Positions 9,061 to 48,222 of a DNA stretch of 64,000 nt are shown one piece after another (position 1 is the stretch's first letter; each line of letters opens with the position of its first letter). The position numbers were made by a program, and so were the translations under genes. This stretch comes from Nesterenkonia muleiensis (GTDB lineage: Bacteria > Actinomycetota > Actinomycetes > Actinomycetales > Micrococcaceae), in NCBI RefSeq assembly GCF_003600155.1, contig NZ_QWLD01000016.1, positions 1 to 64,000 of the forward strand. Direction: 5' to 3'. The notes beneath the pieces were generated by a model. It did not search any database and had not been told where the DNA came from. It saw only the letters and a list, made by a program, of their open reading frames with translations.

Positions 9061-10107
9061 GTGCTGGACAGAATCAGGCAGTATCGCCGCTGCTTCGAGG
9101 AGCCCCGACGCTGGGCTGTGGCCACGGTGGTCAGCACTGCAGGCTCCTCCCCCGCCCCGGTGGGGACATCGATGGCGGTCTCCGCGGACCTGCAGATCAT
9201 CGGCTCGCTCTCCGGAGGCTGTGTGGAGTCCACCACCGCCTCCCTGGCCCAGCAGTGCCTCGAGACGGGCCGGCCGAGGCTGGAGAGTTTCGGCCCCGGT
9301 GGCGGCCTGCTCGGCGAGGTCCCGCTGACCTGCGGCGGGGAAATCCAGGTGCTGATCCAACCGCTGGCACATATGAAAGAGTACGACGACGCCCGGGCGT
9401 TGGCTGCGGGCCAGGCCGAAGAGCCCGCTGAGCTGACCCGGAGAGTCGAGCTGGATTCAGAATGCCTGATCGTCACCGAAAGCCGGGAGCCGGCCCCGCG
9501 TCTGCTGCTGTTCGGCGTCCAGGACTATGCGGTGCATCTGGCCAGGATCGCCCTGAGCGTCGGCTGGCAGGTGGAGCTGGTGGACCACCGCCCCGCCTTC
9601 GGATGCGCTGACCGTGTCCCAGAGGGAGCTCACATGAGCCTCGAAGACCCGGCTTCGGCCGCCAGCCGGCTTGCCGCCCGCACCGATGCCGGCTGGACGG
9701 CGGCCTGCGTGATGACCCACCACCCAGACCTGGATGTGCCGGTCCTGGATGCACTCCTGCGCGCCGAAACGACCGTAGACTTCATGGGCGCTCTGGGGTC
9801 GCGAGCCTCCCAACAACGACGGCGCGCCGAACTCAGACAGCGAGGTCACCAACCGGCCGCGCTTGAGCTCATCCACGGCCCTCTGGGACTGGACATCGCC
9901 GCCAGCACACCTGCTGAAAGTGCGGTATCAGTGTTCTCCCAGCTGATCAGCGCCAGAAACACAGACCACATGTCCAGCATCGGAGTCCCGCTCAGCCGCG
10001 GTACCGGTCCCATCCATCACAGCCGCCCCCGGCAGTCGTCGATACTGCGCCGCCTGCCGGTATCACCGGCAGGCACAGTCCAGTCTCCGGCAGATGTGGT
10101 CAGCTGA
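9061..10107 (+). CDS. xdhC: XdhC/CoxI-family molybdenum hydroxylase maturation protein
   Basis: This 348-aa protein belongs to the XdhC/CoxF family, which binds molybdopterin and loads sulfurated cofactor into xanthine dehydrogenase. The N-terminal XdhC domain has [16 protein letters not shown] and the LSGGCVE motif with its conserved Cys. A C-terminal Rossmann-like domain follows ([30 protein letters not shown]). The GTG at 9061 has GAGGAGG five bases upstream. The last about 40 residues are non-conserved, and their DNA holds a strong hairpin (10052-10074). The stop overlaps the xdh start (TGATG). Confidence 0.9.
10052..10074 (+). other. Strong hairpin within the xdhC 3' end
   Basis: GCCTGCCGG-TATCA-CCGGCAGGC forms a perfect 9-bp, very GC-rich stem in the last codons of xdhC, about 30 bases before the xdh start. 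It has no U-tract. It could set the xdhC:xdh ratio by pausing, RNA processing or stability. Confidence 0.4.
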
Positions 10108-13100
10108 TGGATATCACCACTGCTGACCAGGTGATCACCACCTGGAACCCCGAGGAGAGCCGGCCTGGAGACACCTGGGTGGCCGGCGGGTCAGTGCTCT
10201 ACTCCTACGGCAGGGACTTCCGGACCAGCGCCCCGAGCCGGCTGCTGGACATCAGCACCGCCCCCTGGGCGCCGCTGACCTGGCATGAAGGCCTCGGCCT
10301 GGAAATCGGCGCGACCTGCACCGTCGCGGCGTTCTTCGCCGCCACCGAGACCCTGGAGCAACACGGGATCACCGCAGACCGCTACCCCGGACTGAGTCTG
10401 ATGAAACCAGCCGCCGAGGCCTTCGTGGCCTCCTGGAAGGTCTGGAACAGCGCAACCGTCGGGGGCAACGTGGCCACGGCCCTGCCCGCCGGTCCGATGA
10501 CCTCCTGGCTGGCCGGGATGGGGGCCACTGCTCTGCTGCTCACCCCCGGCGGCAGCCGGGAGCTGCCGGTCACTGACCTCGTCATCGGTGACGGGAAGAC
10601 GGCACTGGACCATGGCGAGCTGATCCGGGCGTTCTTCATCCCAGCTGCCCATCTGGCACGACCCGCGGTGATGGCGCGGGAGTCGCTGACCCGTTACGGG
10701 CGTTCGGCTTGCCTGCTGATCGGCCAGCGAGTCGATGAGAGCAGCCTCCGGCTGACCGTCACCGCCAGCACCTCACGGCCGGTGGTCCTGGACACCGGCC
10801 TCGGCCCCGATGACGCACGCGCCGCCGCGGAAACTCTGCCGGACAGCCTCTGGGTCGATGATGTGCACGGCTCTCCGGACTGGCGGCGCCGGACCACCCA
10901 CCGGCTGGCGGCAGAGTTGGCGGCAGCGTTGGCAGACCGGAGACCCGCCGTCGAAGGTGCCCTGCCGCAGGGCGCCCTCCCACCAGTGTTCCCGGGGCCG
11001 ACCGATCTCGCTGATGCCTCCTCGCACCAAGGGCCGGATGCCGGGAGTGTGCGGGTCGACGGCAAGGATGTGCCCCTGGTGCACCAGCCCGGGCAGTGCC
11101 TGCGCACCTGGCTGCGGGACGCGGCAGGTGCAGATGCGGTCAAACGCGGTTGTGACGCCGGGGACTGCGGGGCCTGCACCGTCCACCTCGACGGCACCGC
11201 GGTGCACTCCTGCATCACCGGTGCCCAGCGGGCCGCCGGGAAGACGGTCACCACCTTACGCGGACTGAGCCCGGAAGCCACCCAGACCGTGGTTCAGGCG
11301 CAGGGCCGGCCCGCACACTCCACACTGCTTGAGCAGCTGCACCCCACGCAGCGGGACTTCCTGAACTCGCACGGATTTCAGTGCGGCTACTGCACTGCCG
11401 GGTTCATCATGACCGCCGCGGCACAGGGACCGTACGGTGCCAGTCCCGCCGGCGGGGAAACCCCGCACGGCTCTCGGCCGCATCCAGAGGCCACGGCCAT
11501 CACACCTGAAGCCAGTCCCGCCGGCGGGGAAACCGAGCAGACCGACCGGCGGTTCAAAGGGAATCTGTGCCGCTGCACCGGCTACTGCTCCATCAAGGAC
11601 GCGCTGTCCCAGGTGCCCCGAGCCAGCACCGACGACGGCCCGGGAAAGAGCCCTCTGCCGCCGGCCGGACCGGGGGTGGTGACCGGCACGGTGGACTACA
11701 CCTTCGACAGTCCTTGTTCCACTGACGGGCGAAGCCCGCTCAGCTCTCGGCCGCACGCAGAGACCGCAGCCATCACGCCTGAGGCTAGCGTCACCGGCGG
11801 GGATGAGTTTCCGGCCGAGCCGCCGCTTCATATTGTCGTTGTGCGTTCCCCCCATGCGCATGCCCGGATCCGAGGCATTGATGCCGCACCGGCGCTGAAC
11901 TCCCCCGGCGTCGTCGCCGTGCTCACCCATGAGGATGTGCCTGCGGCGGTCCGGTACTCCTCCGCCCAGCATGAACTGGCCGAGGACGATCCCGCCGACA
12001 CCCGGCTGCTGGACAGCACCGTCCGGCACGTCGGTCAGCGAGTGGCAGTGGTGGTCGCCGAGTCACGCCGTCTGGCAGCCCGTGCCGCCCGGCTGGTGGA
12101 TGTGGACTACGAGGTGCTGGAGGCGGTCTTCGATCCCGCAACCGCTGCCGAACCCGGTGCCCCGGTACTGCACCCCGAAGACGGCGAACGCACCGATGCG
12201 GTGGGCAGCGCCTATTTCCCGATCCTGGATCCGCAGCACAACCGACTGGCCACCGTAGCAGCAGCCGCAGGCAATGCCGAAGCAGCACTGGCGGAGTCCC
12301 CGCACGCGCTCCGGATGAGCTTCACCACCCACCGGACATCACACACGTCCCTGGAAACCCATGGCACGCTGGGCTGGATCGATGAGTTGGGCCGCTACAC
12401 CCTGCGCAGCTCCACCCAGGTGCCGTTCCTGGCCAAGCGGACTCTGCAGCGGATCTTCGGCCTGGAGTCCCGGACCTTGCGAGTTTTCACCGGGCGGGTC
12501 GGCGGCGGCTTCGGGTCCAAACAGGAGGTGCTGACCGAGGACCTGGTGCTGCTGGTGCTGGTGAAACTTGCCGAGCGAGGCCTCCGGAAGCCGGTCTCCT
12601 GGGAGCTGACCCGGTCTGAGGCGCTGACCGCGACCACCACCCGCCACCCCTTCCGGGTCGAGGTGGCCCTGGCCGCAGACCAGCAGGGCAGGCTCACCGC
12701 GCAGACCATGGGGGTGCTCTCCGACACCGGTGCCTACGGCAACCACGGTCCGGGGGTGATGTTCCACTCCGCACACGAAGCGATGCAGCTCTATTCGGCC
12801 CCCAACAAGCAGGTCTCGGCGGAGGTCGTCTACACGAACAATCCGCCCGCCGGGGCGTTCCGCGGATACGGGCTCTCCCAGACGCTGTTCGCCGTGGACT
12901 GCGCCATGGACGAGTTCGCCCATCAGCTGGGCCGCGATCCCCTGGAGTTCAAGACCGAGAACATCGTCAGCGTCGGCGAGGAGCTGTTCGGCCAGGACGC
13001 CGATGTCCAGGTCGATGCCGACGGGCTGCACCAGTGCCTGTCGATCATGTCCGGCGAACTGCGCAGGGGTCCGCTGAGCGCCGCGGAGCTGGCGCAGTGC

Positions 13101-14048
13101 CAGCGGCGGCTCGACGAGGAGAGCCACGGCTATTCGGCGCCGACCGGAGACTGGCGGCTGGGCATCGGCACTGCGGTCACCATGATCGACACCGCCCCGC
13201 CCAACGGCCATCACTCCCATGCCAGTGTGCGGCCGCTGGGCCGGCCCGATGAGCCCGGCGGCGGACGCTACGAGCTGAGAGTCGGCACCGCAGAGTTCGG
13301 CAACGGCACCTCCACCGTGCACCGGCAGGTGGTCGCGGAGGTGCTGGGCACCACCGCGGAGAAAATTCTGCTGCGCCAATCCGACACCGATCTGGTCGAC
13401 CATGACACCGGTGCCTTCGCCTCCACCGGAATCACCGTCGGCGTCAAAGCCTCCTTCCTGGCGGCCAAGGACCTGCTCACCCAGCTGAACTCCCTGCCCA
13501 CCGGTGCGGACCCGCACACGGTCATCGGCACCGGCCACTGGGGAGGGTCCCCGCGGACTGCGGCGTTCAACGTCCATGGCTTCCGCATCGGGCTCGACGC
13601 CGCCTCCGGCACACTGGTGATCCTGCAGTCGGTCCAGGCCGCCGACGCCGGGGTGGTGCTCAACGAGGCCCAATGCCGCGGCCAGGTCGAGGGAGGAACG
13701 GCACAGGCGATCGGCGCTGCCCTGTTCGAGAAGGTCGTCATCGACCACACCGGCAGGGTCACCACCGATATCCTGCGCAGCTACCACATCCCCCAAATGG
13801 CAGATCTGCCGCGTACCGAGGTGCACTTCGCGGCCACCGAGGACCCCATAGGCCCGATGGGGGCGAAGTCCATGTCGGAGTCACCGTTCAACCCGGTGGC
13901 CCCGGCGCTGGGCAACGCTATCCGCGATGCGGTGGGAGTGCGGCTGACCGAGACTCCGTTCACCAAGGACCGGATCTATGCGGCTCTGCACTCCAGGCCG
14001 CCAGGTCCTGCGGAGTATCAAGATCGGCGTCCCGGGCAACACCGGTGA
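10107..14048 (+). CDS. xdh: Single-chain xanthine dehydrogenase with FAD / 2Fe-2S / Mo order
   Basis: This 1313-aa molybdenum hydroxylase probably oxidises hypoxanthine and xanthine to urate. The FAD domain comes first (about 1-310; [16 protein letters not shown]). The 2Fe-2S domain is next: C349, C354, C357 in CDAGDCGAC, then C426/C429 in CGYC and C488/C490 in LCRCTGY. The large Mo domain spans about 530-1313 ([19 protein letters not shown], and likely catalytic E1258 in KSMSESP). Classical single-chain enzymes run Fe-S, FAD, Mo. Two insertions of a repeated element interrupt the Fe-S domain (445-476) and the linker to the Mo domain (about 539-566). Its 3' end overlaps mocA by 89 bases. Confidence 0.88.
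11439..11534 (+). repeat. ORF-embedded repeat, copy 1 (inside xdh Fe-S domain)
   Basis: Perfect 24-bp direct repeats (11439-11462 and 11511-11534, each beginning GCCAGTCCCGCC) flank a core CGGCTCTCGGCCGCAT...CACACCTGAA. The offset is 72 bp, exactly 24 codons, so ASPAGGET appears twice in the protein. The unit holds the 12-bp palindrome CCCGCCGGCGGG and the hairpin GCGGGG-AAA-CCCCGC. It lies between the CGYC and LCRC cysteines of xdh. Related copies occur at 11722-11805 and, inverted, at 47247-47316. Confidence 0.8.
11722..11805 (+). repeat. ORF-embedded repeat, copy 2 (xdh Fe-S/Mo linker)
   Basis: This diverged copy matches copy 1 without gaps over about 80 bases: shared blocks include GCTCTCGGCCGCA, CATCAC.CCTGA.GC and CCGGCGGGG. 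It encodes [19 protein letters not shown], against [19 protein letters not shown] in copy 1. Both keep the xdh reading frame. It lies in the segment joining the Fe-S and Mo domains. Confidence 0.75.
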
Positions 14049-18882: not shown

Positions 18883-20180
18883 CCGGTGGCCTCCGCTTCG
18901 GGGGTGATGACAGGCTCAGACCGGCCCAGACGGTCCCCGGCACCGGAACTGTACTGCTCTGCTGCTGCGCCCACGCCTCCTCCGGCGGTGACCTGCGCCC
19001 CGCTGCGGCGGAGCACCTGCTCCAGTGCGGCAAGAGTCAGCATCACCGCGTCCTTCCTGGCGTTGTAGCCCATGGTGCCGATGCGCCACACCACCCCGTG
19101 CAGGGGTCCGAAGCTGGTGCCGATCTCAATGCCGTAGTCCTCCAGCAGTCCGGTGCGCACTGCTTCGCCGTCGACACCGTCGGGGATGTGCACGGCCACC
19201 ACGTTGTTCATCCGGTGGCTCTGGTCGCCGAAGATTCTCAGCCCGAGGCCGGTGAGCCCAGCAGCCATGGCCGCACCGTGCAGCCGGTGGCGCGCCACCG
19301 CGTTGTCTATTCCCTCTGCCAGCAGCAGGCGGGCGCATTCGCGGGCGCCGTAGAGCATGGAAGTGGCCTCGGTGTGATGGTTCAGCCGCTGCGGTCCCCA
19401 GTAGTCCAGAATCATCGCCACATCGAAGTAGTTGGAACTGATCCGCCGTCCCTGGGGTGTGCTGCCGTCGTCGATCCCGGCCTCCACGTGGCGGCGGGAG
19501 CGGATAACCTCCACAGCACGGTCGCTCAGGGTGATCGGTGCCGAGCCGGAGGGTCCGCCCAGGCATTTCTGCAGCCCGGCGGTGGCGGCGTCGACCTTCC
19601 AGCTGTCGGCGTGGAAGGGGTTTCCGCCCAGTGAGGCGGTGGCATCGGTGTAGAACAGCGTCCCATGCTTCTCACACAGCTCGCCGACCCCGTCCAGGGG
19701 TTGGTTCATGGTGGTGGAGGTGTCGCCCTGGACCAGGGCCAGGACCTTGGGCTTCTCATTCCTCAGTGCCCGGTCGATCTCTGCCAGGGTGAAGACCTGC
19801 CCCCACTGCTTTTCGAGCACGACGACCTCGGCTCCGACTCGTTCAGCGATCTCCTTCAGCAGGTGGCCGAACCGTCCGAAGATGGGTACCAGCACTTTCT
19901 CGCCGGGCTCGACCAGGGAGACGATGGCAGCTTCGATTCCGGCCCGCGAGGTGCCGTCGATCAACAGCGTGGCCTCGTTCGAGGTCGCGAAGACTCCGCG
20001 GTAGAGCTCCATGACCTCGTTCATATAACCGGTCATGGCCGGGTCATACTGACCGATCAGCGGGGCGGACATGGCCCGCAGCACCCGCGGGTCGGCATTG
20101 ACCGGCCCGGGGCCCATCAGCAGCCGCTGCGGCGGGTGGATCTGGGGGTAGTCCGATGCGGAGAGATTCATAGCCTCCAT
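18879..20180 (-). CDS. pucG: (S)-ureidoglycine-glyoxylate aminotransferase (PucG-like, class V)
   Basis: This 433-aa PLP enzyme probably transfers the amino group of ureidoglycine to glyoxylate. It has LLMGPGPVNADPRVLRAM, PLIGQYDPAMTGYMNEV, the PLP Lys in AGLQKCLGGPSGS and the NHHTEATSMLYGARE stretch seen in PucG and alanine-glyoxylate aminotransferases. It is the first gene of the ureide operon. Starts at 20180 or 20171 are possible; GGAGG lies only two bases before the latter. The C-terminal tail SEPVITPEAEATG is extra and resembles the repeat-encoded segment in xdh. Confidence 0.85.
   Translation of the reverse strand: MEAMNLSASDYPQIHPPQRLLMGPGPVNADPRVLRAMSAPLIGQYDPAMTGYMNEVMELYRGVFATSNEATLLIDGTSRAGIEAAIVSLVEPGEKVLVPIFGRFGHLLKEIAERVGAEVVVLEKQWGQVFTLAEIDRALRNEKPKVLALVQGDTSTTMNQPLDGVGELCEKHGTLFYTDATASLGGNPFHADSWKVDAATAGLQKCLGGPSGSAPITLSDRAVEVIRSRRHVEAGIDDGSTPQGRRISSNYFDVAMILDYWGPQRLNHHTEATSMLYGARECARLLLAEGIDNAVARHRLHGAAMAAGLTGLGLRIFGDQSHRMNNVVAVHIPDGVDGEAVRTGLLEDYGIEIGTSFGPLHGVVWRIGTMGYNARKDAVMLTLAALEQVLRRSGAQVTAGGGVGAAAEQYSSGAGDRLGRSEPVITPEAEATG
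18883..18917 (-). repeat. Possible degenerate copy of the ORF-embedded repeat
   Basis: The last codons of pucG read CATCACCCCCGAAGC...CCACCGG. This resembles CATCACACCTGAAGC...CCGCCGG in the xdh repeat and encodes VITPEAEATG against [11 protein letters not shown]. The match is short and the rest of the element is poorly conserved, so this is tentative. Confidence 0.25.
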
Positions 20181-33130: not shown

Positions 33131-33149
33131 ACCAGTGAGGTCCGCGCTT

Positions 33150-33257
33150 GCCGGGACGGGGTTTTCCGTCCGGCCAGGTCGTCACCCGGGGCACCCCACC
33201 GCGAACTGGAGGGTTGCCGGCCACCAAACCGGGGTTTTGCAGTGGCACTCTTGACCT
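33150..33257 (-). ncRNA. SAM-IV riboswitch
   Basis: Read on the minus strand, the leader has AGGTCAAGAGTGCCA, TGGTGGCCGGCAACCCTCC and GCGGTGGGGTGCCCCGGGTG, closed by GACCT. P1 pairs 33253-33257 with 33176-33180. These are conserved elements of the S-adenosylmethionine aptamer. A hairpin just outside P1 (33150-33174) marks the SAM-IV class, in which it forms a second pseudoknot. High SAM should switch off metY and the genes behind it. Confidence 0.9.
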
Positions 33258-47193: not shown

Positions 47194-48222
47194 GTGGCAG
47201 AAGAAGACGCGGCAACCGGTGAGGCTCACAGCGCAGCGAGCAAGCCGACTTCAGGTGTGAAGGCTGGTGCGAACCAGCCGAGAGCCGAACGGGGTCTCCC
47301 CACCGGCGGGACCAGCACTGTGGCCTTTATCGGGCTGGGCAATATGGGGGGACCGATGGCCGCCAATCTGGTCGCCGCCGGGGTCCAGGTCTTCGGCCAC
47401 GATGTGATGCCGCAGGCCCTGGACACCGCCCGGGGCCACGGCGTCGAGGTGGTCACCGATCCACTGGAGGCAGTGGCCGAGGCCGATGTGGTCCTCACTA
47501 TGCTGCCCTCGGGCCAGCATGTGATCTCTGCCTACCAAGACTCCCCCGGGCTGCTGTCTGCGGCCAAGCCCGACACCATCTTCCTGGACTGTTCGACCAT
47601 CAACATCTCCGAGGCCCAGCAGGCGGCCCAGCTGGCCCAGCAGGCCGGCTTCCGCGCCGCCGATGCTCCGGTCTCCGGCGGCGTGGTCGGCGCCGAGGCC
47701 GGCACACTGGCCTTCATGGTCGGAGCAGCCGGAGAGGTCTTCGAGCAGATCCACCCGTTGTTGGACATCATGGGCGCTCGGGTGGTCCACTGCGGCGGCA
47801 ACGGCCTGGGCCAGGCGGCGAAGATCTGCAACAACATGATCCTGGGCGTCAGCCAGATCGCGGTCGGGGAGGCCTTCGTCCTGGGCGAGAAGCTGGGGCT
47901 GACCCATCAGGCCCTCTATGACGTCGTCTCCAAGGCCTCAGGCCAATGCTGGGCACTGACCACCAACTGCCCGGTACCGGGCCCGGTGCCGAACTCACCG
48001 GCCAATCGCGACTACCGACCGGGATTCGCCGGGGCGCTGATGGCCAAAGACCTCAACCTCGCCACCAATGCCCTGGATGAGCAGGGGGTGGAGGCGCAGC
48101 TGGGCAGGCTGGCCACCGCCATCTACTCTGAATTCGCAGCCGGCGACGGCGCGGGCCAGGACTTCTCTGCCATCATCAACACCATTCGCGACGATTCCAG
48201 CCATCAAGGAGCCCCAGCATGA
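47194..48222 (+). CDS. mmsB: 3-hydroxyisobutyrate dehydrogenase with repeat-encoded N-terminal extension
   Basis: This 342-aa NAD enzyme oxidises 3-hydroxyisobutyrate to methylmalonate semialdehyde. Family motifs are [33 protein letters not shown], the catalytic Lys in [13 protein letters not shown], and KDLNLA. The conserved domain begins only at about residue 42. The first 41 residues are an extension whose codons 19-41 derive from the repeat found in xdh, inserted in the opposite orientation. The GTG at 47194 is five bases after mmsA, and no better start was seen nearer the domain. Confidence 0.9.
47247..47316 (-). repeat. ORF-embedded repeat, copy 3 (inverted, in mmsB)
   Basis: GACTTCAGGTGTGAAGGC and GCCGAGAGCCGAACGGGG plus CCGGCGGGACCAGC match the reverse complement of xdh copy 1 (GGCTTCAGGTGTGATGGC, GCCGAGAGCCGTGCGGGG, CCGGCGGGACTGGC) with one small gap. 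It remains open in the mmsB frame and encodes [20 protein letters not shown]. It is about 36 kb from the xdh copies. Confidence 0.75.

Follow-up and report, generated by a model that had tools for sequence, protein, structure and literature searches.

REP/BIME repeats are extragenic, occur in tandem clusters near gene ends and form hairpins, and one end of REP elements is marked by GTAG or CGTC. MIRUs form tandem arrays. Apart from this general background, the features of Rickettsia palindromic elements (RPEs), MITEs and MIRUs used here are those given in PMC10969869, PMC2229807, PMC12548453 and PMC2635572. RPEs are there described as small palindromic repeats of 105-150 bp with terminal inverted repeats of about 12 bp, which lie between genes and also in frame within them, including genes of conserved enzymes, in one conserved peptide frame (PMC10969869, PMC2229807). 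By the same papers, it is chiefly in Rickettsia that frequent in-frame entry of palindromic elements into genes is known (PMC10969869, PMC2229807). The Correia repeats, according to PMC2229807, form a pair of 107 and 155 bp, with ORF-open species in genes and ORF-closed species between genes. MIRUs are described in PMC12548453 as inserting at start codons, with an internal ORF that is coupled at a -4 spacing.

We analysed a window of 64,000 nucleotides (the whole stretch of DNA under study, GC content 65%) from Nesterenkonia muleiensis, in which a repeat is carried within a xanthine dehydrogenase gene (xdh). Judged by sequence comparison, this repeat is a real, lineage-specific palindromic element that lies in frame inside genes. 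The first-pass annotation had likened it to the ORF-embedded palindromic elements of Rickettsia, and this was borne out by in-frame copies in ten genes, all in one frame; the likeness seen is one of features. Like RPEs, the Nesterenkonia element is found between genes and in frame inside them with a conserved peptide frame (11 copies in 10 genes). Unlike RPEs with their 105-150 bp, its unit measures 71-76 nt and contains two or three separate hairpins, its host is a high-GC actinobacterium, many of its copies sit at stop codons, and a length variant separates the copies in genes from those outside. As is typical of MITEs, it is small (71-76 nt), dispersed (108 sites) and non-autonomous, with no transposase inside. 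It shares non-autonomy, strong folding and in-frame fusion with the Correia/NEMIS, ERIC and YPAL MITEs, and splits like the Correia pair into ORF-open in-gene and ORF-closed intergenic forms, as these families are described; unlike in them, we noticed neither a target duplication nor long terminal inverted repeats. It resembles REP/BIME in being mostly extragenic, with tandem clusters, hairpins and a position near gene ends, but its carriers lack a Y1 transposase, its two-hairpin unit is larger and it enters genes in frame. Compared with mycobacterial MIRUs as described, it is likewise actinobacterial, docks at translation signals and forms tandem arrays, but it docks at the stop rather than the start codon and has covarying hairpins. 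Among the papers listed by the literature searches, which do not establish absence from print, none dealt with such an element in Nesterenkonia or other actinobacteria.

The host gene, identified from its ORF and Pfam matches, occupies 10107-14048 on the + strand and encodes a xanthine-dehydrogenase-family molybdopterin oxidoreductase of 1313 aa with FAD_binding_5, Fer2, Fer2_2, Ald_Xan_dh_C and MoCoBD domains, arranged in a single chain as FAD, 2Fe-2S, 2Fe-2S and Mo. This order of FAD, 2Fe-2S and Mo differs from that of eukaryotic xanthine dehydrogenase, which is FeS-FAD-Mo. Two related units had been reported in frame within xdh, and they are indeed present as a 97-nt direct repeat at 11434-11530 and 11707-11803, with 74% identity. 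Copy 1, together with a partial second unit, spans 11435-11534 (+ strand; covariance model (CM) match at 11437-11512, 83.6 bits), and copy 2, with a degenerate 3' trace, spans 11710-11803 (+ strand; CM match at 11710-11785, 65.5 bits). By columns 13-36 and 41-63 of an alignment of 45 copies, hairpin H1 lies at 11448-11471 in copy 1 and 11721-11744 in copy 2, and hairpin H2 at 11476-11498 and 11749-11771, both on the + strand and both in a 23-nt, frame-open form. The perfect 24-bp direct repeats described around the units (GCCAGTCCCGCCGGCGGGGAAACC, offset by 72 bp) were found around copy 1, at 11439-11462 and 11511-11534 on the + strand, the right one being the start of the partial second unit, but copy 2 has only the degenerate 3' trace. 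The units do have hairpins of their own, but a palindrome proposed for them, CCCGCCGGCGGG, is not itself the covarying helix, which in copy 1 pairs 11448-11450 with 11469-11471 around GCGGGG-AAA-CCCCGC.

The inserts would add about 28 aa (copy 1) and 25 aa (copy 2) to the second 2Fe-2S domain and to the Fe-S/Mo linker, respectively, and ITPEAS is present in both, as had been noted. Among the 120 homologues listed of 4565 matches, N. muleiensis xdh alone (1/120) matched ITPEAS, [FI]TPEA or GGETP. The spacing between the CGYC and LCRC cysteines is longer than the family norm, as the first-pass annotation stated, but it is 57 residues rather than 58, and the median among these 120 homologues is 26 (range 24-59) rather than about 30. 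Since the loop is naturally variable, with 50-59 residues of unrelated filler in five other homologues of the 120, three of which carry the label Nesterenkonia, the case does not rest on its length alone. The five are P0008, P0012-P0014 and P0002. Both inserts are absent from the xdh orthologues examined, a comparison that had been recommended: the element peptide was found in none of the eight genus orthologues readable through both places (G004, G005, G006, G009, G012, G015, G017 and G023; the reading left out G014, whose frame is shifted, and the good matches G003, G018, G019, G022 and G026), and the N. alkaliphila protein P0011 is without it as well. Residues 296-700 of xdh were modelled by AlphaFold2 with 45 homologues, giving a mean pLDDT of 75.9. 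Values below 50 were obtained at fragment residues 155-176, 241-243 and 248-269, so that, apart from the termini, all such stretches fell inside the two inserts (149-181 and 240-271). The modelling, which had been suggested as a check for surface loops, thus gave inserts of low confidence, either disordered or unmodelled, and carries no statement on harmlessness. On the model both inserts are probably disordered, and they are most likely neutral for the enzyme.

Searching the unit across its own genome, here G000, was another recommended check and revealed many further copies. Blastn with 11420-11560 gave 48 matches (E<=10), reaching E=1.6e-27 outside the window and so well past what chance would give, and the covariance model, which scored 150 of its 4988 first-look candidates, gave at least 143 matches (E<=0.1). 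For further analysis, 128 CM matches at E<=5.4e-4 were retained, corresponding to 108 sites, at 19 of which at least two units fall within 200 bp. A third copy in the window (47248-47318, - strand, 85.9 bits by CM) was not called in-ORF, and a weak, possibly decayed copy, outside the 143, lies at 18895-18949 on the - strand (22.5 bits, with an E of 4.8e-4 relative to the bases searched). A large excess of contig ends has a copy within 100 bp (16/114, vs about 0.7 expected). The copy number is therefore a lower bound, and these breaks of the assembly suggest unresolved arrays. At the gathering threshold, Rfam recognised in the 64-kb window only a SAM-IV riboswitch away from the element (33139-33256, - strand, 104 bits), and in four loci with element copies no family at E<=1.

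Strong matches were confined to Nesterenkonia in all scans of the family, the order and 84,980 species. By blastn at E<=1e-3 the element was present in 11 of 30 genus genomes, including its own, with no match in the other 19. The CM scans of family and order were run with stricter filters; at E<=1e-3 matches occurred in 13 of 295 family genomes, namely ten of the genus and three with weak single matches (G162, G181 and G188, E 2.4e-4 to 5.7e-4), which were taken as chance, and at E<=1e-5 in 2 of 396 order genomes, both of the genus. A 28-base exact pattern searched in one genome of each of the 84,980 species hit 12 stretches, all in Nesterenkonia, and plasmid and phage collections contained no match to the 141-bp unit. 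In G027, contig C5:66819-67636 holds a VNTR-like head-to-tail array, in which 11 of 12 blastn matches follow one another at 67-bp steps.

The element unit is 71-76 nt long and consists of two hairpins, to which some copies add a third hairpin or part of a second unit. A profile built from 39 seed copies found 75 distinct matches in the searched loci, of which 45, mostly full-length, were aligned. This one set of 45 copies, found with a profile seeded by sequence required to be H1-like, served both to draw the two-helix structure and to score it. In the structure, 96.6% of 672 cells were paired, and 68 cells in 11 of the 15 pairs were changed on both sides. None of 500 shuffles reached the observed value and slid partners gave 33-57%; the shuffles ignore the relatedness of the copies, and the double changes could partly reflect subfamily inheritance. 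Covariation in H3 was dropped as evidence, as it was circular: copies had been chosen because they have the stem, or had been brought in by eye, and the alignment contained a misplaced row. The 5' edge of the element reads CWGWGYTGGT with no constant GTAG or CGTC tag, and the 3' ends vary; possible TGAG/CTCA ends are limited to three-hairpin copies. The third hairpin follows H2 and ends in GCCTCA (G000:C9:396463, C51:293884, C54:84247 and nine more), and at a few sites its terminal TCA is the apparent stop codon of a convergent gene. Around or between H1 and H2, some copies have additional palindromic sequence (GTCCCTGACGTGGCCCGCAC...TGCACGGGTCCC), noted by eye, for example at G000:C22:43050, C24:8938, C10:94956 and C50:99.

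Most copies (94 of 108 sites) lie outside genes, in flanking contexts L+R+ (26), L-R- (24), L+R- (20) and L-R+ (8); the remaining 16 are too close to the end of a contig. The position relative to stop codons was scored for 47 sites with a coding 5' gene on the same strand and no automatic in-ORF call (three are in-gene by eye). The stop lay between -6 and +4 of the element start in 36 of them, most often at -1 (18 sites), followed by +4 (8) and +65 (5). At all 18 position -1 sites the element starts exactly at the stop of the gene, as C-TGA-G. Fourteen of these 18 genes were compared, 12 of which had orthologues in the loci searched; in 11 of the 12 (the exception being C38:1) an element-free orthologue stops at the same residue, and therefore the element follows native stops. 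At element-free ends of those 12 genes, CTGAG was already present in 20 of 53, a raw count without a genome-wide baseline, which fits either a target preference or decayed copies. Gene ends were examined in 90 of 112 orthologue rows for 18 genes, and in 18 of the 90 a sequence resembling the element matched at E<=1; the score was 24 or more in 14, and two of the 18 matches were on the opposite strand. Among 17 same-site copies, only that at era of G006 had its G000 counterpart as the nearest copy (rank 1 of 102, identity 0.85), with the helix compensated, and the other 16 ranked 14 to 101 of 102; in G016 the era copy was of insufficient length to be ranked. Vertical inheritance of same-site copies thus found support at era alone, the other rows being no closer than paralogues.

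The codon-usage frame test, right in 172 of 181 windows of its own training genes, called 10 of the 108 sites in-ORF, eight on the element + strand and two on the minus strand. After by-eye reading of 20 chosen sites, 14 were assigned to genes; the ORFs at C35:69492 and in the antisense frames were put down to chance and left out. On the + strand, 11 copies are open, all in one common frame and spread over ten genes, xdh among them. At three in-gene sites the element is read from its minus strand. Besides xdh, the + strand hosts recognised by family scan are NAD(P)H-hydrate dehydratase, SodC (Sod_Cu), an E2 acyltransferase, SseB, an Lhr helicase and a TIGR03089 protein; an ABC transporter (PhnL-like), a flavin oxidoreductase (CrtO-like) and a PxpC-like carboxyltransferase (equivalog) matched their families below the cut-off. 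The minus-strand hosts are a nucleoside hydrolase (family scan) and a DUF418-like protein and an ABC permease, both named by eye. C10:92890, at the 3' end of a gene that looks TsaE-like by eye, is a doubtful in-gene site outside the 11. Within the loci compared, orthologues were available for 6 of 13 in-gene proteins, with at most seven listed per gene. Among those listed, the orthologous site was empty in 7/7 for the SseB-like protein (a clean 24-aa gap), 7/7 for Lhr, 4/4 for the PxpC-like, 1/1 for the CrtO-like and 1/1 for the DUF418-like protein, and in 6/7 for the nucleoside hydrolase, where G006 has a similar PAAGTST stretch. The sites in xdh, Lhr, the PxpC-like protein and the nucleoside hydrolase are naturally variable loops with unrelated filler in other species. 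In other species, three of 62 distinct copies were called in-ORF, one (L033) in the same + frame and two on the minus strand.

Nine of the 11 common-frame copies have an H2 of 23 nt instead of the usual 18 nt. Among the 86 of 128 copies used for this count (15 were unmeasurable and 27, two of them in-gene, had other lengths), the ratio of 23-nt to 18-nt H2 was 9:1 in + strand in-gene copies and 10:66 elsewhere (Fisher p=1.8e-6); the xdh pair enters twice from one gene, and the single 18-nt case is the doubtful C10:92890. Broader length classes gave 11:1 in genes vs 23:78 in the others (p=4.7e-6). In the consensus translation, the frame encoding ...TPEA is open in the 23-nt form and has TGA at both ends in the 18-nt form. 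Hence, the in-gene bias is explained by the long form removing the stop in this frame. Other frames are open too, and the use of a single one is a further regularity. A bolder reading, less likely than not, is that the family has split into two working forms, an 18-nt-H2 stop-codon settler with stops at both ends of the main frame and a 23-nt-H2 in-gene specialist encoding a hydrophilic disordered linker in a fixed frame, with structure kept by compensatory change and coding use switched by five nucleotides.

A mobilising enzyme was searched for in the genus. The Y1 (RAYT) transposase PF01797 was absent from the own genome and the ten other genus genomes with element matches, and its single holder among the 30, G010, had no blastn match to the element. 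Reverse transcriptase (RT) PF00078 exceeded the cut-off in six of the 30, with strong matches (above 120 bits) in G000, G003, G016 and G020, all element carriers; the carriers G006 and G025 had no strong match, and weaker ones occurred in G013 and G026, which had no blastn match to the element. The four RT loci searched contained no element copy. Rfam group II intron matches were observed at these four loci. The link between RT and the element was left as a weak correlation. By eye, no target duplication was noticed, and no recent strain-level insertion was seen.

The two units could in principle be an ordinary internal duplication of a segment of the xdh protein with no dispersed element, and their 74% identity and the low complexity of the common peptide would agree with this. 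We regard it as virtually out of the question: the existence of copies outside genes (94 of 108 sites, beside the 48 blastn and at least 143 CM matches in the genome) refutes it, and the xdh orthologues examined are without the peptide. A REP/BIME-type repeat that is moved by a Y1 (RAYT) transposase and occasionally enters genes would also show many copies, units in tandem or in part, hairpins and a position 3' of genes, yet PF01797 is missing in all 11 carriers, G010 as its sole holder has no element match, and no constant GTAG or CGTC stands at the 5' edge, making this origin very improbable.

An actinobacterial element of MIRU type, aimed at stop codons and acting through translational coupling, would account for the 18 of 47 scorable copies beginning exactly at TGA, the tandem array in G027 and the actinobacterial host. 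The docking here is at the upstream stop, vs the start codon in MIRUs (compared by description), and we consider this reading rather improbable. It is also somewhat unlikely that the element is a selected regulatory RNA of the 3'-UTR, a transcript-end stabiliser or translation damper, whose gene insertions are accidental. The compensatory changes, which extend to the clearly orthologous era pair, the element-like matches at 18/90 orthologous ends and the raw count, without a baseline, of 8/78 scorable sites between divergent genes all speak for such a role. Against it stand the remaining same-site copies, which are no more alike than paralogues, as repeated landing would leave them, the existence of antisense and in-gene copies, and the 19 of 30 genus genomes without a blastn match.

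We therefore favour a non-autonomous, dispersed, structured, MITE-like mobile element of Nesterenkonia that very probably works like a Rickettsia palindromic element. As read from the alignments, it is a 71-76 nt unit with two covarying hairpins at 108 sites, missing from the xdh orthologues examined and open in one frame in ten genes. A putative trans-acting enzyme would copy the element into new sites. Many tolerated landings would lie just 3' of stop codons, where the element would give the transcript a 3' hairpin and leave the protein unaltered. Landings in genes would survive in variable loops and in the open frame, mainly as the 23-nt H2 variant, and the translated inserts of xdh would form disordered loops. 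An actinobacterium with RPE-like behaviour, many copies, comparable species and empty sites makes several open questions testable, namely what copies such elements, whether selection acts on the structure or on the peptide, and by what route an insertion in an enzyme comes to be tolerated as a linker.
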